Source of the DNA: a virus
Strand: one strand, 5' to 3'
Length of the DNA stretch: 23,674 nt
Virus record (IMG/VR): IMGVR_UViG_3300021197_001061
Span: 1-23,674 of that record
The notes below the pieces were generated by a model. It had not been told where the DNA came from and searched no databases. It was given only the letters and a program-made list of their open reading frames with translations. A program made the translations under genes and the position numbers. Shown in pieces: positions 3,027 through 23,674 of the stretch (the first letter of the stretch is position 1; each line of letters begins with the position of its first letter).

Positions 3027-4106
3027 ATGAAGACAGCTATAATCTTTGGGGTAACAGGACAAGACGGAAGTCACTTGGCGGACTTGCTACTAGAAAAAAA
3101 CTATAAAGTTACGGGCGTTACAAGAAGAACAAGCACAGATAACACGACACGTATTTCGCATTTACTTAATAACGAAAATTTCAAGTTAGCGAGTGGCGAT
3201 ATTACAGATGCGTCCAGTGTTTTAAATATACTTAGAGAACACGAACAAGTAGATGAAGTCTATAATCTTGCAGCACAATCGCACGTTGCAGTTTCATTTA
3301 AGCAACCCGGATTAACTTGGGATATAACAGGAAAAGGATGTTTAAATATTTTACAAGGATTAGTAGATCTAAACATGTTAGGTGCTAGATTTTATCAAGC
3401 AAGCAGCAGTGAAATGTTTGGAAAAAATTATGATATCGAAGTAGGCATGACCTCTGAAACCAAATATCAAAATGAAGAGACTAAATTTTTGCCGCAAAGT
3501 CCATATGCTATTGCTAAATGTGCTGCCCACTATATGACTGCTCTGTACAGGGATGGTTATGGAATACATGCAAGTGCCGGTATACTATTTAATCATGAAG
3601 GACCGCGAAGAGGAGAAACTTTCGTAACAAGAAAAATCACAAAATGGATTGGTGACTTTGTTAAATGGAACAATCCAACAAACGAGACGGGGGCGATTAT
3701 AGATATCCCTAAGCAAGACGATGAGAATATGCTTTATAACTCCCTTATGGACGGAGAGGGTTTTCCCAAGCTTCGTCTAGGCAATCTAGACGCATATCGA
3801 GACTGGGGATACGCTGGAGACTACTGTGAAGCGATGTGGATGATGCTGCAACAAGATGAAGCAGACGACTATGTTATTTGTACAGGAGAAACGCATACTA
3901 TTAGGGAATTCCTAAATGTTGCTTTTCAAGAAGCAGGGATAACCGATTGGTCTGCTTATGTTATTCAAGATCCAGAGTTCTACAGACCAGCAGAGGTTGA
4001 TTACCTTAGAGGTGATTGTAGCAAAGCAAATACGAAACTAGGATGGACACCTAAACATAGTTTTGAAGACTTGGTTAAAATGATGGTAAAGCATGATCTA
4101 GAATGA
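3027..4106 (+). CDS. gmd: GDP-mannose 4,6-dehydratase-like protein
   Basis: This is an extended short-chain dehydrogenase/reductase. GVTGQDG (8-14) is the glycine-rich NADP-binding loop, LAAQSHVAVSF (81-91) is a Gmd-type segment, and the catalytic set appears as S127-S128-E129 plus Y160-x3-K164. NHEGPRRGETFVTRKI (189-204) and LGNLDAYRDWGYAGDYCEAMW (about 252-272) are typical of GDP-mannose 4,6-dehydratase, which makes GDP-4-keto-6-deoxymannose, the precursor of GDP-fucose, rhamnose and perosamine. The 359-aa length fits the family. Between about residues 210 and 250 it carries roughly 35 residues more than the usual sequence, including an Asp/Glu-rich stretch. AGGA precedes the ATG. The next gene starts inside its stop codon. 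No later enzyme of the sugar pathway is in the window, so it probably feeds host enzymes or genes elsewhere in the phage. Confidence 0.9.
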   Translation: MKTAIIFGVTGQDGSHLADLLLEKNYKVTGVTRRTSTDNTTRISHLLNNENFKLASGDITDASSVLNILREHEQVDEVYNLAAQSHVAVSFKQPGLTWDITGKGCLNILQGLVDLNMLGARFYQASSSEMFGKNYDIEVGMTSETKYQNEETKFLPQSPYAIAKCAAHYMTALYRDGYGIHASAGILFNHEGPRRGETFVTRKITKWIGDFVKWNNPTNETGAIIDIPKQDDENMLYNSLMDGEGFPKLRLGNLDAYRDWGYAGDYCEAMWMMLQQDEADDYVICTGETHTIREFLNVAFQEAGITDWSAYVIQDPEFYRPAEVDYLRGDCSKANTKLGWTPKHSFEDLVKMMVKHDLE

Positions 4107-4351
4107 AGATTTATAAAGTACATATGGTATTAACTTTAGTTATGCCAAGGTTAAAGAAATATGAACTAGAAGACTACAATAGTTCAACACCGATAATATT
4201 TGTTGAAGCACAAGACCCCGACGATGCTTGCTATAAGGCAATGCATAAGTTAGCTTCTAAGATACTTAAATCTGATCATTCAATTGAAACCTTAAATTTT
4301 ATAAAAGATATATTCCATGACATAAGAATAATAAAGATTGAAATACCATGA
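4103..4351 (+). CDS. Small hypothetical protein (82 aa)
   Basis: An 82-residue protein that starts in the ATGA overlap with the gmd stop and ends in an ATGA-type overlap with the HNH gene. This tight packing on both sides is the main support for it being real. It reads as an alpha/beta protein with an initial hydrophobic strand (residues 2-14), a segment with IIFVEAQDPDDACYKAM in the middle and a final strand RIIKIEIP. No family is recognised and no catalytic motif is visible. Confidence 0.6.
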   Translation: MKIYKVHMVLTLVMPRLKKYELEDYNSSTPIIFVEAQDPDDACYKAMHKLASKILKSDHSIETLNFIKDIFHDIRIIKIEIP

Positions 4352-4614
4352 GAAGAAATTATGACGACCCAGTGTATAGAGACTGGAGGGTTAAAGTATA
4401 CAAAAGAGATAAATTTACATGTCAGATGCCGGGATGTAAACGTAAGAAGAGATTGAACGCGCACCACATACAGAAATGGGCTAGCGCTTCTATATTGAGA
4501 TACGACGTTGATAATGGTATAACTTTATGCAAGAACTGTCACGATAAAGTAACGGGACACGAACAGCATTATCAAGGATTATTTCAAGATATAGTGAGAA
4601 AAAATAATGGCTAA
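4348..4614 (+). CDS. HNH endonuclease
   Basis: An 88-residue single-domain HNH nuclease. C25 and C30 (CQMPGC), the AHH pair at residues 38-40, N56 in DNGITLC and the CKNCH group (61-65) match the zinc-bound beta-beta-alpha metal fold. H39/H40, N56 and H65 would be the HNH residues. HNH proteins nick or cut DNA; in phages they are homing nucleases or, when close to terminase genes, helpers of genome packaging. This one lies about 1.1 kb upstream of the large terminase gene in the same operon, so a packaging role is possible. It is not inserted in another gene and has no intron signature, so free-standing homing is less supported. It overlaps the next gene by eight bases. Confidence 0.85.
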   Translation: MRRNYDDPVYRDWRVKVYKRDKFTCQMPGCKRKKRLNAHHIQKWASASILRYDVDNGITLCKNCHDKVTGHEQHYQGLFQDIVRKNNG

Positions 4615-5110
4615 ATACAAGACCGCTCCGAGTTATACAGTTGTGAGAGACACAAGGGAGCAGCAAGGTTATTTCTTTAAAAAATTCAACACATGCCAAG
4701 GTACAGTGCAAAGAAAATTAGACACTGGCGACTATTCTATACTTGGAATGGAAGAAAAGGTTTGCATAGAAAGAAAAGCAAGCGTATCTGAGATAGCGTT
4801 AAACCTAGGCAAAGGGAAGTACGCATTTTATAACGAAGTAGAAAGGATGAGAGAGTATGAACACAAGTTTATAATTTGCGAATTTTCTATGGAAGATGTC
4901 ATGAAGTTTCCAGAAGGTGCTAACATACCAAAGGAACTAAAAAACAAAGTGAAAATAACAGGTAAGTATATACTAAGATGCTTAATGGAATTTGCAGTTT
5001 TTAATGATGTACATGTTATATTCGCTGGTAGCGAAAGAGGGGCATTTGACTTAACGAGTAGTCTACTAAAAAGAATTAACGAAAAGTACACGATAGGGCG
5101 TAAGTCATGA
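4607..5110 (+). CDS. ERCC4 (XPF-type) nuclease domain protein
   Basis: The 167-residue protein has the ERCC4 nuclease signature in order: D15-T-R17-E18, GDYS (41-44) and IERK (54-57). These are the acidic and lysine residues that bind the catalytic metal in XPF/Mus81-family structure-specific nucleases. The usual form is ERKxxxD; here the sequence reads ERKASVSE, with Ser in the Asp position and Glu next to it. This variation could change activity or be compensated by E62. A long Glu/Arg helix follows (about 75-90). There is no helix-hairpin-helix region, so it is a stand-alone nuclease domain. Probable work is on branched or flapped DNA in recombination, repair or resolving replicating DNA before packaging. 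It overlaps both neighbours, so it belongs to the same operon. Confidence 0.8.
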   Translation: MAKYKTAPSYTVVRDTREQQGYFFKKFNTCQGTVQRKLDTGDYSILGMEEKVCIERKASVSEIALNLGKGKYAFYNEVERMREYEHKFIICEFSMEDVMKFPEGANIPKELKNKVKITGKYILRCLMEFAVFNDVHVIFAGSERGAFDLTSSLLKRINEKYTIGRKS

Positions 5111-13501: not shown

Positions 13502-16500
13502 ATGACTATTAGATCTAGAGACGAATTTCAAAACCTAATAAATTCTCTACTACCAGACAATAGTTCTAGAGAAATATCGCCAGAAGACATGAGATCAGTA
13601 TTTACTGATCTTGCAGATTCTATCGGTTCCTTCTTGGCAAAGCAAGAAATTGTTTCACTAAATTTCGCTACGCCAGATACTAGAACAACAATAGCAGGCG
13701 AAGATGCGCTAAAACAAATAGGACTAACAGGAAGATTCTCAACAGATAACTCTGCTCTAGGTTATGGTGCATTACAGTTTAGTTACACTGGAGAGAGAAA
13801 TACCGCAATAGGTTCTGAAAGTCTAAAGTTTCTCTCTTTAGGTCATGATAATGTTGCTATAGGTAAAGATACTCTTTGCGCAACGACTGCCGGTTCTGGT
13901 AATGTTGCGTTAGGAAACTTTGCGTTGCAAAAAAATAAAAGAGGTGACTTTAATATTGCCATAGGTCATGGCGCTGGTCATTATGTAGATGATAATTCAA
14001 GTTTTAAAGTATACTTAGGTTCTTTTCCTGATGCGTCTGGTGGTTGCGATATCCCACAAATCTCTGGAAAACCACCTCTTATTTATGGCGATCTATTAAA
14101 AAACCAACTTGGTATAGGTGTCAAGTCTTTTCATAATGACACCACTGCGCTTCAAGTTTCGGGCAACATAATACCACACGAAAGCGGTGGTTCATTTTCT
14201 CTAGGTAGTGGTTCGTATACTTGGGATGCTTACCTTAATAATGTCTACATTTCTGGTGAATTAAGTTATCCTCTTGCTTGGGATTTCAATGTAACAGATG
14301 GTGCAGTCGCTCCTAATCTCGTTGCAAGTGGAGACACTATTCACATAAGTGGCGTAAGTGGAATAAAAACTGAATTCTTAGACCTAAATGAAAATAAGTA
14401 TGTATTTATATCAGCAAATCCAATTTCAGGTTGGGCGGAATCAAATTTAAATTCTATATCTGGAGACAACGGTTTATTACACAGTATTTCTGGTTATCCA
14501 AATGGTTTAGTCTATCAAGCCAGCGGTTCACTTGCTAGTGAAATTAATGCTGTTTCAGGTGTCGGTGGTCAAATAGACCAAGTTAGTGGTTGGTCACAAT
14601 ATAATTTCTCTGCTATAAGCGGGTTTCCAAACGGTCTATTATATCAGAGTAGTGGATCTCTTGCTAGTGAGATAAACTCAGTATCTGGCGCGGGAGGTGT
14701 TATCGACCAAGTTTCTGGTTATCTAGCCAATTACCCTCAAGGTTTAATATATCTTGTCAGCGGTTGGAATAAGGGGTATACAGATGCGCAAGTGGGTGCT
14801 GCTGGTGGTTATACTTTCTGGGAATTAGAAGGTCAATATGGCGCATCGGGAATAATCAATCATGCAGATACGGTTATTATAAGCGGTTGCAGTGGTGTTG
14901 AAACCACACTAGATTTTAACGAAAATGGCGTAACAAATAACTACAGATTAAATATTAACGCTGCGCCGATTTCTGGTTATATAGACGCTAGAGAAGTTGC
15001 TCTAACTACTTTAATAAGCACCAACTCTAACGATATCGACGATATTACAGATGTAAGATTACCACAAATTTCTGGTTTTCCCAATGGTTTATTGTACTTA
15101 GCGAGTGGTTCGCTTGCTAGTGAAATAAATGATGTTTCTGGTGTTGGCGGGCAAATAGATTCTGTCAGTGGTTGGACTTATGATAACCTAAATCTTCTCT
15201 CTGGAGTTCATAATGGTCCTCTTTGGGGAGGTAGACCATCAGGTTTGATATTCCAAGTCAGTGGATTTTTGAAACATTATATAGACAATAAAGACTTAAC
15301 TGCCGGTGGTTACAACCACTGGAAAGTTGAAACTATAGATGATTACGACACAACAAGATCTTCTTTTAATGTTGACTCAAAAGATACAGTATTATTTTCT
15401 GGCGTTGATGGGATCGCGATTAGTGGTTACGAAGACTCTAGTCTAAATACAGTTGAGATAAGCGCATCTCCTATTTCTGGATATCTTGAGTCTAGACTTG
15501 AATCTATTATTGAAGATATAAATACAAACACTGAAACCAATAACAGTCAAGCAAATTCTATTACTGACCTTGAGGGAAATATAGCGTCAACAGGTAGAAC
15601 GCTTTTAAAAGAGATAGACACAATCAGTGGCGTAAACGGAACCTTAAAGCAAACAAGCGGAAACCTAAACAATACAATATCTTCTTTGTCGGGTTATCTA
15701 AGCAATTACCCAGAAGGTTTGATTTATTTAGTTAGCGGTTGGAATAAACAATATACCGACACTCAGGTAGACTTCAATGTAGGTGAAGATGGATACGGTT
15801 ACTGGAGAATTGGTGACGCAACAGACATTAACTACCAAGTCGGATCGACGGATAAAGTAAACGCAATCGGCAAAGATGGAATTTCAACACAAGTAAGACA
15901 AGATGCCGGTATAAACTACTTAGATATCTCTGCCTCTCCTTTATCTGGACTAATGGTAGATGACCTTAATAGTATCTCTGGTATCGGCGGTATAATAGAC
16001 GAAAGAATAAAAAATGCCGGGGGAGATGGAACGCTTTTCACTTGGATTCTTTCTGACTCAGTTAGAGATTCTCAAATACAAGGAACTGACAAAGCAAAGT
16101 TTGTCGGAGTTTCTGGTATAGAAACTTTCTTGGAAATAGACAACGACAAAGTTCTGATATCCGCACATCCTCTTTCTGGATACCTTGACTCTAGAATTGA
16201 TGGAATATCTTCTCAACTTGATTGTATAAAAGGTGTAAACTGCCCGGATTCAAACACAGAGTGCTGTGACAATGTTAGCGGCTGGACATTAACAAATCTA
16301 AACACTTTAAGTGGCATAGCGCCTACGATTTACGGTCCTAGTGGTTTGATATGGAGCGTAAGTGGCAATATTAGAGATTATATAAACAGCGAAATCCAAG
16401 GTCTGTCTCTTTCTTCTGACAGTTACTCTCATTGGAGAATAAGCGACGGAACTACAATTCGTAGTATTAGAGCCTTAGAAGAAACTCAGTTTCTGGGTGT

Positions 16501-17572
16501 TAGTGGAATAGAAACTCAAACAAGGACTACGGGTGCTAGTGGATTGACCATATCTGCCGGTCCTCTGTCGGGTTGGGCAAACTACAACTTCTATAATGAA
16601 CTTGGTCAGACAAGGATCAGAGCAAAACAAGCAAAGAACGATGCGGTTGCGCACGCCAACCTTGCTAGTGGTTCCTTGGCTTATGAGATAAATCAAGTTT
16701 CTGGTTATCCCAACGGTCTGGTTTATCAGGTTAGCGGTTGGACTGCCGGTGAACTTAACTCCATATCTGGGGTCGGTGGTCAGATAGATGCTGTTAGCGG
16801 TTGGTCTCTAGAAAATCTAACTCAAATATCTGGATTTAACGGCATAATAGATCAGGTTAGCGGTTGGACAGAATATAATTTAGATGCTATATCTGGCGTA
16901 GACGGTGTAATTGATCAAGATGTTTCCGCAATGAGCGGCGCTCTCAACAATGAATTAAATCTCCTATCTGGGGTTGCAGATAATCTCTGGAATGGTTATC
17001 CTTCTGGTTTAATTTGGCAAGTTAGTGGTATATTCAATACTGTCTCTCTTCTTAACCTTACAGCGGGTAGTGGTTTAATCTTAGAAAACGATGAGTTTAG
17101 AACTCACGGAAGCGGAACCTTCAATAAAGTTATCCTAAGTAGAAACTCCGATCCATCTGGTCAAATAGTTGCTGATTCTGGTGGTCCTAATAATATTGTT
17201 AATTCAAGTGGTTATCTTGTTACTCCTTTTTACGATAAAAGGACCACGCTAGAAACCGCAATAACTCCTTCTGCTGCAAATTCTGGTGCTATATTCTTTG
17301 CTGGAGATCATCCGGTAAGGTCTCAAGGTTCTTCTTGGTCAAGACCTGTGAATATAGAAGGTTTCTTAGTAGATGATTTACTTGCACCAACAAGTTATAA
17401 TAGTCCTACGAGCGGTAGACTTACAGTTATGGATGATCAGTTTTCAACGTCTGATGTTGTTTATGTGACAAATAGAGATACCTATCTTTCAATTAGCGGT
17501 ACACTTTTCTGCGTTGCGAGTTTAGTCAATGGAGAATATAGACCAATCTACCATGCTTGCAGTGGAGCTTAA
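13502..17572 (+). CDS. Giant repeat-rich tail fibre/adhesin-like protein
   Basis: The 1356-aa protein has an N-terminal cap (residues 1-50, ISPEDMRSVFTDLADSIGSF) that probably joins it to the virion. Next are five NxAxG repeats (83-155) exactly 17 residues apart, as in trimeric adhesin heads and phage fibres. Then a long region (about 250-1180) of Ser-Gly motifs such as ISGVGGQIDQVSGW and SGSLASEIN alternates with six larger modules that begin with a Trp (W260, W440, W607, W768, W848, W978) and end near P-I/L-S-G. A C-terminal domain (about 1190-1356) has no such repeats and probably contacts the host or ends the fibre. No chaperone/self-cleaving domain is seen. The protein is probably trimeric and made from tandem duplications. 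The receptor cannot be told. Confidence 0.8.
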   Translation: MTIRSRDEFQNLINSLLPDNSSREISPEDMRSVFTDLADSIGSFLAKQEIVSLNFATPDTRTTIAGEDALKQIGLTGRFSTDNSALGYGALQFSYTGERNTAIGSESLKFLSLGHDNVAIGKDTLCATTAGSGNVALGNFALQKNKRGDFNIAIGHGAGHYVDDNSSFKVYLGSFPDASGGCDIPQISGKPPLIYGDLLKNQLGIGVKSFHNDTTALQVSGNIIPHESGGSFSLGSGSYTWDAYLNNVYISGELSYPLAWDFNVTDGAVAPNLVASGDTIHISGVSGIKTEFLDLNENKYVFISANPISGWAESNLNSISGDNGLLHSISGYPNGLVYQASGSLASEINAVSGVGGQIDQVSGWSQYNFSAISGFPNGLLYQSSGSLASEINSVSGAGGVIDQVSGYLANYPQGLIYLVSGWNKGYTDAQVGAAGGYTFWELEGQYGASGIINHADTVIISGCSGVETTLDFNENGVTNNYRLNINAAPISGYIDAREVALTTLISTNSNDIDDITDVRLPQISGFPNGLLYLASGSLASEINDVSGVGGQIDSVSGWTYDNLNLLSGVHNGPLWGGRPSGLIFQVSGFLKHYIDNKDLTAGGYNHWKVETIDDYDTTRSSFNVDSKDTVLFSGVDGIAISGYEDSSLNTVEISASPISGYLESRLESIIEDINTNTETNNSQANSITDLEGNIASTGRTLLKEIDTISGVNGTLKQTSGNLNNTISSLSGYLSNYPEGLIYLVSGWNKQYTDTQVDFNVGEDGYGYWRIGDATDINYQVGSTDKVNAIGKDGISTQVRQDAGINYLDISASPLSGLMVDDLNSISGIGGIIDERIKNAGGDGTLFTWILSDSVRDSQIQGTDKAKFVGVSGIETFLEIDNDKVLISAHPLSGYLDSRIDGISSQLDCIKGVNCPDSNTECCDNVSGWTLTNLNTLSGIAPTIYGPSGLIWSVSGNIRDYINSEIQGLSLSSDSYSHWRISDGTTIRSIRALEETQFLGVSGIETQTRTTGASGLTISAGPLSGWANYNFYNELGQTRIRAKQAKNDAVAHANLASGSLAYEINQVSGYPNGLVYQVSGWTAGELNSISGVGGQIDAVSGWSLENLTQISGFNGIIDQVSGWTEYNLDAISGVDGVIDQDVSAMSGALNNELNLLSGVADNLWNGYPSGLIWQVSGIFNTVSLLNLTAGSGLILENDEFRTHGSGTFNKVILSRNSDPSGQIVADSGGPNNIVNSSGYLVTPFYDKRTTLETAITPSAANSGAIFFAGDHPVRSQGSSWSRPVNIEGFLVDDLLAPTSYNSPTSGRLTVMDDQFSTSDVVYVTNRDTYLSISGTLFCVASLVNGEYRPIYHACSGA
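13748..13966 (+). repeat. Five 17-residue NxAxG repeats in the fibre
   Basis: In the encoded fibre, N83SALG, N100TAIG, N117VAIG, N134VALG and N151IAIG stand at an exact 17-residue step. Regular NxAIG repeats of this type form left-handed or trimeric beta-rolls in adhesin heads such as YadA/Hia and occur in phage fibres. The step length is constant (51 bases), so it likely arose by tandem duplication. Confidence 0.75.
14279..17030 (+). repeat. SG-repeat region with six Trp-started modules
   Basis: Six related modules start at Trp codons at 14279, 14819, 15320, 15803, 16043 and 16433. Each holds a D/E-T-V/K...SGVSGIET-like strand and ends ISA-x-P-I/L-SGY/W/L. Between them are shorter Ser-Gly units. 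The SGSLASEIN unit appears at 14522-14548, 14651-14677 and 15104-15130, with a diverged copy at 16667-16693. The DNA of these copies is similar but not identical, so duplication is not recent, or selection keeps the protein. Confidence 0.75.
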
Positions 17573-17575
17573 AAT

Positions 17576-20500
17576 ATGACATGTTGTTGCGTAACACCAC
17601 CTCCAGATCCTCCTCCTGTGGGTTCTTGTTGCTTTACAGAGATAAGTAAAAGCGTACCGAAAAAGACTGGGGCTAGTCGTCAAAATCAAAGCGATCCATT
17701 AGACGTACTTAACAATGGTGATCCACTAGGTAGTTTAGATGCTGCTATAACTGCTACATCTGCTTATCTTCAGGGTGGAGGAGATCTTGGGTATTTCTAT
17801 GACGTAAATGGGGATGGGTTTATAACCGCCGCCGATTTACTTGCTTTGGTGAACCTAAGAGCTTTCTTTGAACAAAGCCTTCGCTCCAATGGTAACGTGT
17901 GCGTGGACAACATAACTCAAGCGCAATGTTTTTCAAGCGTTGGTCTATCAGAAGAAACGGTCAATGGAACGCGAACTTTTTTCAGGAGGGGTAGACATAA
18001 ATTCAATCCAAATCAAACTTGCGGAGAACAAGTTTCATGTCCTCTTGTTCCTAGTCTTTCTTACAACACTGCTTGTGGAGAAGTAGATTGCCCCGGATAC
18101 TATTGCAATGTAGAAACTGGCGACTGTGGTTTACGTAGTTCTATAGACTCAAGTTTATTAGGAAGTTATCCCTACACACTGGTTGACAATTGTAATGAAT
18201 GTGAAAAACAAAATCCCGGATGCTGCTGCTACTACTGGGAAGACCCTGAAGGAAAAATACCAGACTACAATAATGTTTTTTACGTCTCAGACGATTCACT
18301 ATGCAATGCCGGTAGAATTTTTCATGTAAATCAATTTATATTTCCTACTTCAAAGTTTGTTGGTGAAGCCAACGGCGGATTTACTAGAGACTCTAATGGA
18401 AACATTACTTGTGGTTCGATATCTCCTTGTAACGGAGATGATGATGACGATCCTCCGGTTAGCGGTTGGTATTGCCTTGAGGATTTTAGCAGTGGAAACA
18501 AGTTTTGTCAATTCTTTAACAGAGACCCTAAAGAAGAAGGGTTTATTGACACTGAAGTAAAAGGTGGTCCGTTTCAAGAGAAAAGCATTTGCGACGAGAA
18601 TTGTTCCGATGGTGATGATGATCCTCCCCATCCTCCCGCAGATCAAGGTTACATATGCTTGAGTATGGATAAAAATGGATTATCAGATATAGTCTTGACT
18701 AACGATTGTAATGTAGACCCTTTTACCATAGATGTTTCAGTAAATAGATTTAAATATGATAAAACGGGCAAGGCTGGACCTGTATCTGTTGAAGTTGTAG
18801 CTCTTCGTAACAATGTTGAACTTCTTTCTGGTACGGTAAATTTCCCCACTCCAGATATAGTAAACGAAGAGTTTACTCAAACAGTACCTTTTACTTTAAC
18901 TCTACCTAGAGATTTTTCTACTGGTGAACATCCTTTATTTGTACAACTTAGGAACCCGACAAATGGAGCGAAGATAAGCAGTTTTACGTGCCGTTTAGAA
19001 ATTAAAGTTGTAATTCCAGACGAGTGTCCATTTTGTTGCAAAGATGATGCTGTTATAGGAACAAATATTTCTCCTTGTGATTGCTTTGCTTTAGGCGGCG
19101 AATGCTCAAATACAAATGACTGCGGCACACCTAGAGATGACCTAGGTCGATGCTGTTACGGTCCACAGTGTTACGAAGCTTGTCCAGAAGACTTCATATG
19201 CGAAGACGGAATAACCAAGCGAGAGTGTGACGAAAAAATATTCACCATTAACGGAATAAGCTTCCAAACGCAAACAAATTTTTCAAAAGGCGAGAATTGC
19301 GATTCTGATCCTTGCTATACAACTACCACAACAACCACAACTCCAAGTCCATGTTCTTGCGCAGAGGCAGGAAAAATAGATTGTGAAGAAAATATAAATG
19401 AAGACGGTTGTATATTTGTATATAATTCATCGACTGATTCTTTCTCATTGACTTCAAATTGTCCAGATGGAGCATCTTGCTTAGATTACGATGTAGATTG
19501 CTTTAGAACTCCCGCGCTAAGTAACGGCGATTTATTTGGAAAACCATGTTGCTGTACAACGCCGCCGCCCGCAAGTTCAAACTGTGATTATTGCTGTGTA
19601 GATCCAGACGGAGCAGGTTCAACAACCCTTACCTCTGCTGAATGTGCTGCCCTAAAAGGTGTTTGTATAAATTCTGGAGACCTTCCCGCCTATACCGCAA
19701 GTTCTCCTTTTGGAGACGTGGCAAAATCCTACTGCAATACAAACGGTTGCGACCTAACCACGGGATACTTAGTAAGATATGAGGGAAGTGGAGTTCATAC
19801 CCCTAACAGTCAATCGTATACCATATCGACTAGCGGAAACGTTAACTTCCGTCTTTACAGTGGTCTTTTACATGATAAGTCTTTTTCTTGGACTAATCTA
19901 GATTCTGGGAATTGCCCTGTAAAAGTAACCTTAAAGAAAGATGGCGTTACCGTATGCGAATCGCCATACTTTGGTGATCCGTCTTACCAAGCAGAACTAG
20001 ACGCGGCCTTAGGTTCTTCAAGTCCAATATCTAGTTGGCAGGGTCTATTTCATAGTGGTATTTTCTTTGATGGTGCGGGAACTCTAGGTGTAGATATTAG
20101 TTCTCCACTAGATTGCGGAGAGAAGTCAACTTGGTCCTATAATGCGACCTGTCCTTATAACTGTATAAACAGTATTGTTAATAACATGACTGATGAATTT
20201 AGCGATTTTTTTATCCCCGCATTTGAAAGAAGATTTGCTCACGTAATTAATTCAGACGGGTTTTTAAATTTTGATCTATATCCAAACTTGGGATATAATC
20301 CAAACAGACTTTTTGATTTTGACACTGATACAAGCACCTTTGCTCACATTGTAGATAAAATCGAGCCGGCTGTAAGTCGTTACAGTACACAGCAATTCAA
20401 AACGGTTATGATAGGTCAAAAATATAGAGGTGTTGGTTCATCTCAATTCCGCGACTGTGGTGTTGGTACGAATTATTTTTATAAACTAGATGGCACTCCG

Positions 20501-21466
20501 GGATCACTGGATGGTTCAACTACACTGGGAGATTTAAATGGTTTTTGGCAACTAGGCACTCCCCCAGACGTTTCAGGACTTGATATAGAAGATGGTTCAG
20601 CAAGTTTTCGGGTAAACACTCTCATAGGACATCCCGATCATTCAAGTTCATATAATATAACTATCAATTATTCATATAGTATATCAGATACGCTCACTTC
20701 AAATAATTGTCAACCTGTATACGAATGGCCCGCTTACCCTCGAAATTTACTAGAATGGGACAACCCTGAGAACGTCCAAAATTTCCTCTCAAACTTCGCA
20801 AGGAATAGTCGCTATGACTATCCGACAAAAGGTTGTTCTCAAGCAAGTTTAATGCTTCACGTAAAACAAGTAGGAAACCTATGCTCTCGAAAATACATAC
20901 CCTCATCAGGAGAGCGATCAGGACAAAGCTGCTCGTATGACTTTAACGATTTTAAAATTGGTTGTATTACGGTACACTCTCAAGACAAATCGGATCAAAC
21001 CCTTCCTGATGAATTTGATTATAAATTTTTATACGAGGCGCCTTATTTATCTTTGGACGAGGTTTTATTAGCAGGTACTAATAACTATCAGGATTGTTCA
21101 TGCTTTGCAACTATGTGTTGCGACGGCTCAGACCTTAATGGCGATTGTTACGAAAATGTTTCAGAAGAAACATGCGATTGCAAAATAGGCGCTGGACTTT
21201 ATAATCCCACTACTCAAGAACTATTTGACGACCCCTGCAATCCAGTATTTTACGACTTCTCTAGTGTTTACACACACTGGAATGCGTTTTATCAGATCTT
21301 ACCTAGAGCTGGATTCCGCACTTGCACTGCTCCTCCTTCTGAAGTTCCTGAAGCAAGCGATTACGATTTCTCTGGAAGCGCCGGTTTTTGGACTTATCCA
21401 AGTTGTGGTGAAATTAAAAGAATATGCGCAGGAGAAGACCTCTCAGGAGGCGGCGGCGGAATTTAA
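17576..21466 (+). CDS. Giant cysteine-rich protein with dockerin-like loop
   Basis: A 1296-aa protein with about 80 cysteines by my count (near 6 percent), often as CC or CCC. It starts MTCCCVTPPPDPPP. Residues 76-87 (DVNGDGFITAAD) form a full EF-hand/dockerin calcium loop, followed by LLALVNL; a weaker copy may lie at 43-62. Two Asp-Pro linkers (GDDDDDPP near 285, GDDDPPHPP near 345) each lead into a G-W/Y-x-C-L segment. Residues about 355-485 look like an Ig-type beta-sandwich. Eight Thr in a row (582-589) form a linker to more Cys-rich units. No signal peptide or membrane helix is seen. It lies between the fibre and a glycosyltransferase, so it is probably a virion surface protein. GGAG (17564-17567) precedes the ATG. 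The exact role is unknown. Confidence 0.6.
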   Translation: MTCCCVTPPPDPPPVGSCCFTEISKSVPKKTGASRQNQSDPLDVLNNGDPLGSLDAAITATSAYLQGGGDLGYFYDVNGDGFITAADLLALVNLRAFFEQSLRSNGNVCVDNITQAQCFSSVGLSEETVNGTRTFFRRGRHKFNPNQTCGEQVSCPLVPSLSYNTACGEVDCPGYYCNVETGDCGLRSSIDSSLLGSYPYTLVDNCNECEKQNPGCCCYYWEDPEGKIPDYNNVFYVSDDSLCNAGRIFHVNQFIFPTSKFVGEANGGFTRDSNGNITCGSISPCNGDDDDDPPVSGWYCLEDFSSGNKFCQFFNRDPKEEGFIDTEVKGGPFQEKSICDENCSDGDDDPPHPPADQGYICLSMDKNGLSDIVLTNDCNVDPFTIDVSVNRFKYDKTGKAGPVSVEVVALRNNVELLSGTVNFPTPDIVNEEFTQTVPFTLTLPRDFSTGEHPLFVQLRNPTNGAKISSFTCRLEIKVVIPDECPFCCKDDAVIGTNISPCDCFALGGECSNTNDCGTPRDDLGRCCYGPQCYEACPEDFICEDGITKRECDEKIFTINGISFQTQTNFSKGENCDSDPCYTTTTTTTTPSPCSCAEAGKIDCEENINEDGCIFVYNSSTDSFSLTSNCPDGASCLDYDVDCFRTPALSNGDLFGKPCCCTTPPPASSNCDYCCVDPDGAGSTTLTSAECAALKGVCINSGDLPAYTASSPFGDVAKSYCNTNGCDLTTGYLVRYEGSGVHTPNSQSYTISTSGNVNFRLYSGLLHDKSFSWTNLDSGNCPVKVTLKKDGVTVCESPYFGDPSYQAELDAALGSSSPISSWQGLFHSGIFFDGAGTLGVDISSPLDCGEKSTWSYNATCPYNCINSIVNNMTDEFSDFFIPAFERRFAHVINSDGFLNFDLYPNLGYNPNRLFDFDTDTSTFAHIVDKIEPAVSRYSTQQFKTVMIGQKYRGVGSSQFRDCGVGTNYFYKLDGTPGSLDGSTTLGDLNGFWQLGTPPDVSGLDIEDGSASFRVNTLIGHPDHSSSYNITINYSYSISDTLTSNNCQPVYEWPAYPRNLLEWDNPENVQNFLSNFARNSRYDYPTKGCSQASLMLHVKQVGNLCSRKYIPSSGERSGQSCSYDFNDFKIGCITVHSQDKSDQTLPDEFDYKFLYEAPYLSLDEVLLAGTNNYQDCSCFATMCCDGSDLNGDCYENVSEETCDCKIGAGLYNPTTQELFDDPCNPVFYDFSSVYTHWNAFYQILPRAGFRTCTAPPSEVPEASDYDFSGSAGFWTYPSCGEIKRICAGEDLSGGGGGI
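19319..19342 (+). repeat. Poly-threonine linker (eight Thr) in Cys-rich protein
   Basis: Eight consecutive Thr codons are followed by Pro-Ser-Pro, a linker type often found in secreted cell-wall-binding and cellulosome proteins and a frequent O-glycosylation target. The codons are a mix of ACA, ACT and ACC, so it is not a simple slippage tract. Confidence 0.7.
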
Positions 21467-21486: not shown

Positions 21487-22512
21487 ATGGAAAAGAAATT
21501 ATCAATAGGATTTGCGCACCATAATGATTTTAGTGGCGCATGGTTTACAATACAAGACATAAGAAAAGAACTTTTATTTAACGGAAGGAAAGATCTTTTA
21601 GATCAAATAGAATTTGTTGTTGTTGAGAACGACAAAAAATCCTCCCACTCAAACGAACTAAAACATTTTTTAGTCAATACGTTGAGCAAAGAAAAGTCTT
21701 TGGTCTATTCAATTATGAGTGCGAACGGCACTGGTATAGCAAAAAACGAAGTCGTCAAAATTGCAAATGCAGACTTTGTGCTTGTGCTTGATTGTCATGT
21801 GCTACTTTGTCCTGTGGTTCAAACAATAGAAAAACTGTTTAAATTTATAGAAGAAAACCCAGAAACAAACCACATCTATAACGGACCACTGGTTTATGAT
21901 GATTGCATCAATCTTTCAACGCATCTGTCTGATAAGTGGAGTGACTCCATGTGGGGTACTTGGTCAACTGCGATGTCTTGTTCTTGCAAGAACTTCAACT
22001 TTGAAATAAGAACAGATGGAGATCAGGGAAAATTCCACTCTGTTGCAACGGGAAAGGAAATAACTAAATGTGAAAATTGCGGTCATAATTTTTATACAGA
22101 CAAGAACGAGGGCATTATTCCAACTATGATGCTAAACAGCGATGAACCTTTTGAGATTTTCGCTCAAGGTACAGGTTGTTTCTTTGTTAGGAAAGATGCT
22201 TGGTTGGGTTATAATCAACACGCTAGGGGTTTTGGTGGAGAAGAATGCTACATACATGAAAAATACAGAAAAGCAGGGCATAAAGCTTACTGTTTACCGT
22301 TTCTAAAGTGGTTACACAGATTTGGTAGACCAGAAATGCCAAAATATCCCCTTAAAAACCATTATAAACTAAGAAATTACATACTTGAGTTTGTAGAGTT
22401 GGGTTTAGACCTGTCTCCCGTTAAGCAGCATTTTAGTCAGCAAAGTGATTTTGATGAAATAGTGTATAATTCTTTTGTAAGAGAAGCAAATTATCTATAT
22501 AACAGGGAATAG
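21487..22512 (+). CDS. Family 2/27-like glycosyltransferase with Zn-ribbon-like insert
   Basis: The 341-aa protein has a GT-A glycosyltransferase layout. FVVVENDK (43-50) is the nucleotide-binding start, VLVLDCHVLL (98-107) holds D102-x-H104, a metal-binding DxH as in polypeptide GalNAc-transferases rather than the common DxD. GFGGEE (248-253) is in the acceptor/catalytic segment, and LKWLHRFGR (273-281) supplies a late histidine (H277) as in the GalNAc-T HxF/HIFR motif. Between them is an insert of about 45 residues with CSC (165-167) and CENC (195-198), a zinc-ribbon-like cluster. No membrane segment is seen, so it is probably cytosolic. It lies between two giant virion protein genes and may glycosylate them (Ser/Thr-rich targets); that is inference. 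AAAGG precedes the ATG. Confidence 0.8.
   Translation: MEKKLSIGFAHHNDFSGAWFTIQDIRKELLFNGRKDLLDQIEFVVVENDKKSSHSNELKHFLVNTLSKEKSLVYSIMSANGTGIAKNEVVKIANADFVLVLDCHVLLCPVVQTIEKLFKFIEENPETNHIYNGPLVYDDCINLSTHLSDKWSDSMWGTWSTAMSCSCKNFNFEIRTDGDQGKFHSVATGKEITKCENCGHNFYTDKNEGIIPTMMLNSDEPFEIFAQGTGCFFVRKDAWLGYNQHARGFGGEECYIHEKYRKAGHKAYCLPFLKWLHRFGRPEMPKYPLKNHYKLRNYILEFVELGLDLSPVKQHFSQQSDFDEIVYNSFVREANYLYNRE
22462..22471 (+). promoter_or_regulatory. Candidate late promoter before second fibre (GTGTATAATT)
   Basis: GTGTATAATT lies within the last codons of the glycosyltransferase gene and ends 44 bases before the ATG at 22516, almost the same spacing as at 7710 and 12950. No good -35 box lies at 22442-22447 (AAAGTG). 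Confidence 0.5.
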
Positions 22513-22515
22513 AAA

Positions 22516-23674
22516 ATGGCACTTATAATAGCAGACAGAGTTAAAGAAACTACTACAACTCAGGGGACCGGAACGGTCACTCTTGGAGGTTCTACTTTTG
22601 GAGGATTTCAGTCATTCTCCGACTCTGTGGGCGAAGGAAACTCAACTTACTACTGTATCGAAAACGGTTCTAATTTCGAGATTGGAGTTGGTACATTTTC
22701 TTCTGGGACTTTTAGTAGAGATACAGTTCTTCAAAGTTCTAATTCAGATAGTAAAATAAGTTTAGTCGGCACTTCTGTTATTTTTGGCGTTCTCCCTGCG
22801 GAAAAATTAGTATTTAAAGATGAAAATAACAATACGTTATTTCCTACGCCAACTGTATTTAAAAGATCCGATAGCGGGGATTATTGGCAAGCATTTTCTA
22901 CTGATGTTCCTTCAAGGGTCGTTTCTTTTTATATTACTGAATCAACAGATGCTCAATGGAAAATTGGTTTAAAAACTTCTAGCACTGATACTGTAGAACC
23001 TTCTTATGGATATATTACCGCTAAAGAGGGATTTGTAGAGGTAAAAGGTTCTGCTCTTTCATACTTAAATATAGGTCAAGAAAATGACGAAGGACTGAAG
23101 GTCTCACACAATCTGACTGATATCGTTCATTTAAGAAAAAACGGTGGTGAGATAACCGTAGAGACACTTTCTCTGGATAGCACTAACTCTACTAAAATAA
23201 AAAATACTTCAATTGGCAACCCTGTTCTTGAAGTCGAGTCTGCTGTCAGTCATGCTTCAGATCTCCAAACATGGAATGTCGCAACCATAGAAAAAGCAAG
23301 TATAGATAAGGATGGTCATTTTCAAACAGTTGGTGATGTTATATCTCCTAGTGGTAAATTTTCTTCAGTAAGATTTAGTGACTTAACTATTCAAACAACC
23401 GCTGGGTTGCCTTTCATTAGCGGTCAATTAATAGATCAAAATAAAGCCGACATAGCAACCGTGTCTGGTTTGCTCTACAATGACGCTTCTCTTTCTGGCT
23501 ACTTCCAGTCTCGCGTAGACTCGGCAGATTCTAGCATCTCAACTAACTCTTCTAGTATCACTGCGAACTCAGGATACTTTGAGTCTAGGGTTGATTTAAC
23601 TGACGAAAACATTGTTTATATATCTGGAATTGCTGTCTTTGCTTCTGGTCACAATTTACAGTCTGTCACAGATA
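22516..23674 (+). CDS. Second fibre-like virion protein, partial at window end
   Basis: The frame is open from ATG 22516 to the window edge (386 codons), so the 3' end is missing. AGGGA lies seven bases before the ATG. The start, ALIIADRVKETTTTQGTGTV, with FGGFQSFSDSVGEGN and YYCIENGSNFEIGVGTF after it, is a common N-terminal domain of phage fibre-like proteins that carries a Tyr/Cys and FEIGVGTF strand set. A beta-rich middle follows. From about residue 295 it holds Ser-Gly units (SGLLYND, SGYFQSRVDSADSS, SGYFESRVD) that match the SGYLESRL/SGYLDSRI units of the 13502 fibre. It is therefore probably a related fibre or tail-surface protein. The last part of the function cannot be seen. Confidence 0.75.
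   Translation, partial: MALIIADRVKETTTTQGTGTVTLGGSTFGGFQSFSDSVGEGNSTYYCIENGSNFEIGVGTFSSGTFSRDTVLQSSNSDSKISLVGTSVIFGVLPAEKLVFKDENNNTLFPTPTVFKRSDSGDYWQAFSTDVPSRVVSFYITESTDAQWKIGLKTSSTDTVEPSYGYITAKEGFVEVKGSALSYLNIGQENDEGLKVSHNLTDIVHLRKNGGEITVETLSLDSTNSTKIKNTSIGNPVLEVESAVSHASDLQTWNVATIEKASIDKDGHFQTVGDVISPSGKFSSVRFSDLTIQTTAGLPFISGQLIDQNKADIATVSGLLYNDASLSGYFQSRVDSADSSISTNSSSITANSGYFESRVDLTDENIVYISGIAVFASGHNLQSVTD

Follow-up and report, generated by a model that had tools for sequence, protein, structure and literature searches.

Mucin-type O-glycosylation is regarded as a trait of the eukaryotic secretory pathway. In the mucins of animals and apicomplexans, Cys-rich stretches alternate with Thr/Ser/Pro tracts, and these proteins are paired with a GT27-type enzyme. 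The GT27 and GT60 enzymes use UDP-sugars as donors. A survey of GT-A folds confines the DxH motif, in place of DxD, to these two families, both of which are retaining and glycosylate Ser/Thr residues of polypeptides; it also describes the C-terminal His as general across GT-A folds and ties hypervariable region HV2 to acceptor specificity (PMC7185993). CST1 of T. gondii is an apicomplexan example (PMC5225312). Phage virion glycosylation as such is already known from mycobacteriophages (Che8 gp110, Corndog gp38 and Myrna) whose own glycosyltransferases modify capsid and tail-tube proteins (PMC12363180, PMC12619734). Those systems belong to isolated mycobacterial phages, and the descriptions consulted mention no Thr-tract partner gene. 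Like them, the locus reported here encodes its own transferase, putatively for particle proteins, a likeness by description. A literature search, with most subscription journals outside its coverage, found no paper on a phage mucin-like protein combined with a GT27-like enzyme.

The window, which is the whole stretch of DNA that was analysed, is an IMG/VR virus record of 23,674 bases from an uncultivated marine phage. The genes and the tract that matter here are as follows.

3027..4106, + strand: GDP-mannose 4,6-dehydratase (GMD), possible donor-sugar supply (in the packaging and virion block)
13502..17572, + strand: Ser/Gly-rich tail-spike or fibre-like protein, 1356 aa (PHROG 6002 and 4636 matches)
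17576..21466, + strand: Cys-rich, Thr-tract (mucin-like) protein, 1296 aa, the proposed acceptor (ORF, gene pairing)
19319..19351, + strand: TTTTTTTTPSP tract, residues 582-592 of that protein (translation)
21487..22512, + strand: GT27-like GT-A glycosyltransferase (GT), 341 aa (ORF, AlphaFold2 model, structure searches)
22516..23673, + strand: Ser/Thr-rich fibre-like protein, incomplete at the window end (ORF, relatives' gene order)

The GT gene starts 20 bp after the gene of the 1296-aa Cys-rich protein and is separated by 3 bp from the downstream Ser-rich (14.8% S) fibre-like ORF, which leaves the window. This confirms the gene order given in an earlier sequence-only reading, which had placed the enzyme between a Cys-rich giant protein with a Thr run and a Ser-rich fibre. 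The GT is held in a same-strand virion run that includes a ClpP-type protease, a terminase large subunit, a weak portal match, fibre-like proteins and a putative major capsid protein assigned by position; the fibre-like gene at 13502..17572 is kept upstream of the GT slot in relatives. The window also contains a sigma-factor region 2-like ORF recognised by eye (1741-2253, DIKQESYIICIEALERYD; no PHROG match), an HNH-like ORF, also by eye (4348-4614), and an ERCC4-type nuclease (4607-5110; PHROG 3490, E 5e-16).

The AlphaFold2 model of the GT, computed from a 20-row alignment, has a pLDDT of 87 and a pTM of 0.89. In a Foldseek search of the PDB with this model, rows 1-46 were all GT27 enzymes (best E 6e-12). 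VIA-align likewise returned GT27 enzymes in its top 29 rows (Z 22.6-18.9, rmsd ~3), with 253-274 residues aligned, so that nearly all of the model is superposed on the catalytic domain of GT27; these rows were followed by GlfT2 (Z 17.3), chondroitin polymerase (17.2), and then B4GALNT1 and the teichoic-acid enzyme RmlT. Three short elements mark the predicted active site.

21790..21798, + strand: DCH metal motif, D102-C103-H104 (sequence; D and H in 89/89 distinct aligned homologues)
22231..22245, + strand: FGGEE, residues 249-253, counterpart of the GT27 WGGEN/Q (xED) motif (alignment)
22315..22317, + strand: H277, the C-terminal metal His (C-His) (91/91 distinct aligned homologues)

E252 and E253 are, like H277, conserved in all 91 homologues. 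FGGEE is found in 89 of the 91, the second G being variable in two. The Gal/GalNAc-T motif of GT27, WGGEN/Q, is absent from the 91 aligned homologues, none of which has N or Q at position 253. The residues named in the sequence-only reading (D102, H104, the CSC at 165-167, the CENC at 195-198 and H277) are at those positions in the ORF translation, and GGEE occupies 250-253. In T. gondii GalNAc-T3, the three residues corresponding to D102, H104 and H277 bind Mn2+ together with UDP and water (PMC11074326).

Sequence searches gave a weaker link. A profile of the C-terminal half, made from insert-free members, matched only GALNT7 (E 0.038) and GALNT10 (E 0.67) among PDB sequences, both weakly; the alignments put GGEE on GGEN/GGEQ, and the family His on or beside the GT27 metal His. 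A single-sequence search of the GT against PDB sequences gave no match, nor did searches against PHROGs and NCBIfam. All 20 members of the alignment match Glycos_transf_2 (PF00535; best 1e-14), the window GT with an E of 2e-4 and 21.7 bits, slightly below the 23.3 cut-off. The fold searches, the invariant DxH and C-terminal His and the weak GALNT7/GALNT10 matches together support the GT27 relationship that the sequence-only reading had proposed. Because the sequence link is weak (best E 0.038), we designate the modelled enzyme as GT27-like rather than as an established GT27 member.

With GT27 GalNAc-transferases (GalNAc-T2, T. gondii GalNAc-T3, GalNAc-T7 and T10), the phage enzyme shares the whole-domain GT-A fold in its model, DxH with the C-His, the GGE motif and Thr-rich acceptor candidates. 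In contrast to them, it is phage-encoded, has neither a lectin domain nor a transmembrane stem, carries GGEE for GGEN/Q and a four-Cys insert in HV2, and is only ~14% identical. The polypeptide GlcNAc-transferases of GT60 (Skp1 type) share DxH with it, and also the protein Ser/Thr acceptors proposed for it (PMC7185993), whereas the GT60 Pfam model PF11397 was not matched by the window GT at E up to 10. The closest viral GT-A model, A0A6J7WYC1 from an uncultured Caudovirales phage (BFVD; E 3.5e-20, 24% identity), is 288 aa long, 53 aa shorter than the window GT.

The insert that sets the enzyme apart from GT27 lies between beta6 (155-160) and beta7 (231-235) of the model, a position equal to HV2, the acceptor-side hypervariable loop.

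21967..22149, + strand: acceptor-side insert, residues 161-221, between beta6 and beta7 (model, alignment)
21979..21987, + strand: first Cys pair of the insert, C165-S-C167 (sequence, alignment)
22069..22080, + strand: second Cys pair of the insert, C195-E-N-C198 (sequence, alignment)

The insert is missing in 35 of 91 aligned homologues, which have 13-17 residues there instead. Among the 56 insert-bearing homologues, 37 have both Cys pairs, 19 have neither and none has a single pair (Fisher p 2e-15, with kinship among homologues ignored). Such a pattern would be expected of a metal site that comes and goes as a whole. In an alignment of 33 insert-bearing sequences, C165 and C198 never vary, and the conservation of C167 and C195 is at least 90%. 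The W-x-C-x-C...C-x-x-C spacing of the pairs is typical of metal knuckles. When the insert was modelled alone (pLDDT 76), no zinc ribbon was found in the PDB (best Foldseek E 0.8; best VIA Z 3.1, SH3 chains); the VIA rows include one rubrerythrin (Z 2.8). Profile searches for zinc-ribbon homology returned generic multi-finger proteins only, which we judged compositional and rejected. Of the zinc-ribbon-like insert proposed in the sequence-only reading, the co-conserved CxC and CxxC pairs therefore stand, and the ribbon fold was not recovered. From the Cys pattern, the insert is likely a zinc-binding, possibly ribbon-type element.

The enzyme belongs to a widespread family. Scanning viral contigs with a single sequence brought up 45 relatives; a profile, run against 2.9 million viral contigs, found at least 252 GT stretches, 80 of which were kept. 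One scan of bacterial and archaeal genomes added 19 relatives, mostly from Planctomycetes MAGs, with carriers outside this phylum including Chthoniobacter flavus, a Chloroflexota-type genome and Rhizocola. The 50,697 deposited phage records contained no homologue (tblastn, three different members as queries). In total, 92 distinct GT proteins were gathered, and 91 were aligned. Many relatives are 575-690 aa long with an additional C-terminal domain, which in several matches a methyltransferase profile (Methyltransf_24 or RMNT_CmcI); such fusions occur in L028-L044, L048-L060 and others. The GT copies on the Planctomycetes MAG contigs L049, L050, L054, L056 and L060 are read as prophages or misbinned phages and give a hint of a Planctomycetes host for that branch. 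The mucin-like gene of L050 follows a tape-measure gene at a distance of two genes.

The order of genes in relatives of the window type is capsid, small head or fibre protein, fibre, slot protein, GT and fibre; in one subclade the slot protein follows the GT. The GT thus lies within the virion block, flanked by fibre genes and downstream of the gene taken to encode the major capsid protein. Searching with the small head or fibre protein recovered no more than five loci.

We scored every gene around the GT for Thr tracts, defined as six or more consecutive S/T/P residues, at least four of them Thr. At position -1, a Thr-tract gene, usually Cys-rich, was present in 61 of 87 distinct loci, compared with 9/82 at -2, 9/81 at +1, 2/67 at +2 and 15/813 at a distance of three genes or more. 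When one random gene per locus was taken (20,000 draws), the mean was 8.7 and the maximum 20; in a length-weighted permutation (5,000 draws), they were 15.8 and 28. The signal persisted when loci were thinned at 60% GT-core identity (15/23 clusters vs 3/251 far genes) and at 50% (5/7 clusters). In all 61 pairs the two genes share a strand and lie -4 to 129 bp apart, and the pairing is seen in all three insert classes. This family-wide pairing is new support for virion glycosylation, which the sequence-only reading had put forward as a working hypothesis.

In a reverse test, blind to the GT, viral contigs were scanned for (ACN)12, which yielded 80 loci, 65 with a true Thr run; the GT family was present at three of these 65 (L191, L192 and L194). 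Poly-Thr as a predictor of the GT was rejected, since 62 of the 65 phage poly-Thr loci have no GT nearby. The enrichment of the GT at Thr-run loci is large, without a firm figure, the 252 per 2.9 million contigs being a lower bound. Other sugar or GT clusters of the same kind of phages contained no Thr-tract genes; the one positive among them (L270) surrounds a GT that itself belongs to this family. In the GT set, 20 of 90 loci have no Thr tract at -2, -1 or +1, including the close relatives L004, L072 and L073, and acceptors at such loci must be other than a Thr-tract protein.

Phages with the same capsid fill the slot between two fibre genes with a mucin-like protein and GT, with another protein and GT, or with a low-Cys protein and no GT. 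In one capsid lineage (at least 8 kb downstream), seven loci have GT and mucin, five GT only, nine neither and two mucin only. Two of the five GT-only loci are near-duplicates, and for one of the two mucin-only loci a GT of the family occurs in another part of the record; after correction for that locus, the co-presence is suggestive (Fisher p 0.03, small numbers).

The window's own mucin-like protein contains 82 Cys (6.3%), 7.3% Thr and a single, short Thr run (eight Thr), which is preserved in an 80%-identical relative (L001). Its counterparts in relatives often combine long Thr, PTTTTT or STTTT tracts with 6-12% Cys; those of L002, L006 and L095 are small, at 337-378 aa. Pfam contained no family for ten mucin-like proteins scanned, and PHROGs none for nine. 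A weak Dockerin type I or EF-hand-like motif (E 0.004) lies at 17789-17854 (residues 72-93, DVNGDGFITAADL region). In the isolate genome of Rhizocola hellebori (L061:6242-8828), a 434-aa Thr/Pro-tract protein adjoins a GT of this family. Animal and apicomplexan mucins are modified in the secretory pathway, in contrast to the presumably cytoplasmic phage pair, and sequence homology between the two is not demonstrated; their likeness is likely convergent.

We consider that the GT is probably a GT27-like protein O-glycosyltransferase that coats the mucin-like virion protein encoded next to it with sugar. The same activity might instead be directed to the Ser/Gly-rich fibres (13502-17572 and 22516 onward) or to the capsid, with the Thr-tract gene as a passenger of a variable fibre slot. 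Fibres on both sides of the GT in window-type relatives, the GT-bearing relatives that lack Thr tracts, and a subclade with Thr tracts in the fibre itself (L012, L021) fit such acceptors. The Thr-tract signal, however, is sharp at -1, low at -2, +1 and +2, and recurs in unrelated neighbourhoods, which makes this choice of acceptor unlikely. A role in modifying a polysaccharide of the host or of the phage (LPS or exopolysaccharide), for example at a receptor, appears less probable still. Many GT2 enzymes do modify polysaccharides, Pfam puts the GT in Glycos_transf_2, related phages possess entire sugar-nucleotide clusters that include further GTs, and the polysaccharide enzymes GlfT2, chondroitin polymerase and RmlT rank behind GT27 in the fold search. 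Such a role would leave the pairing with the Thr-tract gene unexplained, and DxH is described for GT27 and GT60 only (PMC7185993).

Two further questions concern the details of the preferred protein O-glycosyltransferase. Its donor may be a deoxy-sugar, which would make it, for example, an O-fucosyl- rather than an O-GalNAc-transferase; we regard this variant, a sub-case and not an exclusive rival, as possible but somewhat doubtful. The virion operon of the window contains the GMD gene, and copies 72-90% identical occupy the same place in the two relatives checked by sequence (L279 and L280). All seven long window-type relatives have an epimerase-family gene in the matching position, 11-18 kb before the GT, the five longest also have a GDP-L-fucose synthase-like gene (mutual identity 57-75%), and GGEE in place of GGEN/Q would suit a different donor. 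The GMD and synthase may serve other transferases, such as an alpha-1,2-fucosyltransferase-like ORF recognised by eye only (L276:9321-10124), and the GT27 and GT60 donors are UDP-sugars. Contigs L273-L277 (97-174 kb) carry long sugar clusters with GDP-fucose synthase-like and RmlA/RmlB-like genes, aminotransferases and further GTs. Judging from these genes, window-type phages can probably make GDP-fucose and dTDP-sugars; because relatives encode such genes, GalNAc is not established as the donor, and the GT may draw on these sugars or on UDP-GalNAc or UDP-GlcNAc of the host. As for the insert, its four Cys might bind no metal and form disulphides or a plain loop, as the lack of a zinc-ribbon match for the isolated model and the relatives that keep the insert length with the Cys pairs gone would allow. 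The all-or-none occurrence of the pairs, their knuckle-type spacing and the presumably cytoplasmic location of the GT argue against this, and we think it improbable.

In the mechanism that we infer for the protein O-glycosyltransferase, a metal-dependent, probably retaining enzyme would add sugar to Thr/Ser residues of virion proteins, with the Cys-rich, Thr-tract protein encoded 20 bp upstream as the first acceptor. D102, H104 and H277 would bind the metal together with the diphosphate of the donor, and E252/E253 are placed where GT27 holds the sugar. The four-Cys insert may be a metal-stabilised extension of the HV2 acceptor loop that helps to select the acceptor. As a result, a protein on the particle surface or associated with the tail would carry dense O-glycosylation.

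On a wider scale, we consider it about an even chance that a widespread and as yet undescribed class of phages produces a mucin of its own. The system would consist of a Cys-rich virion protein with Thr tracts and of a GT27-like transferase devoted to it, the latter often joined to a methyltransferase-like domain with a possible role in capping the sugar, and would give a densely O-glycosylated coat in a prokaryotic setting. If so, the phage pair would be a prokaryotic counterpart of eukaryotic mucin-type O-glycosylation, in a two-gene layout that is directly testable. It may offer a compact source of enzymes for decorating Thr-rich peptides in bacteria, and it would bear on the shielding of phage particles and on the origin of the polypeptide GalNAc-transferases.
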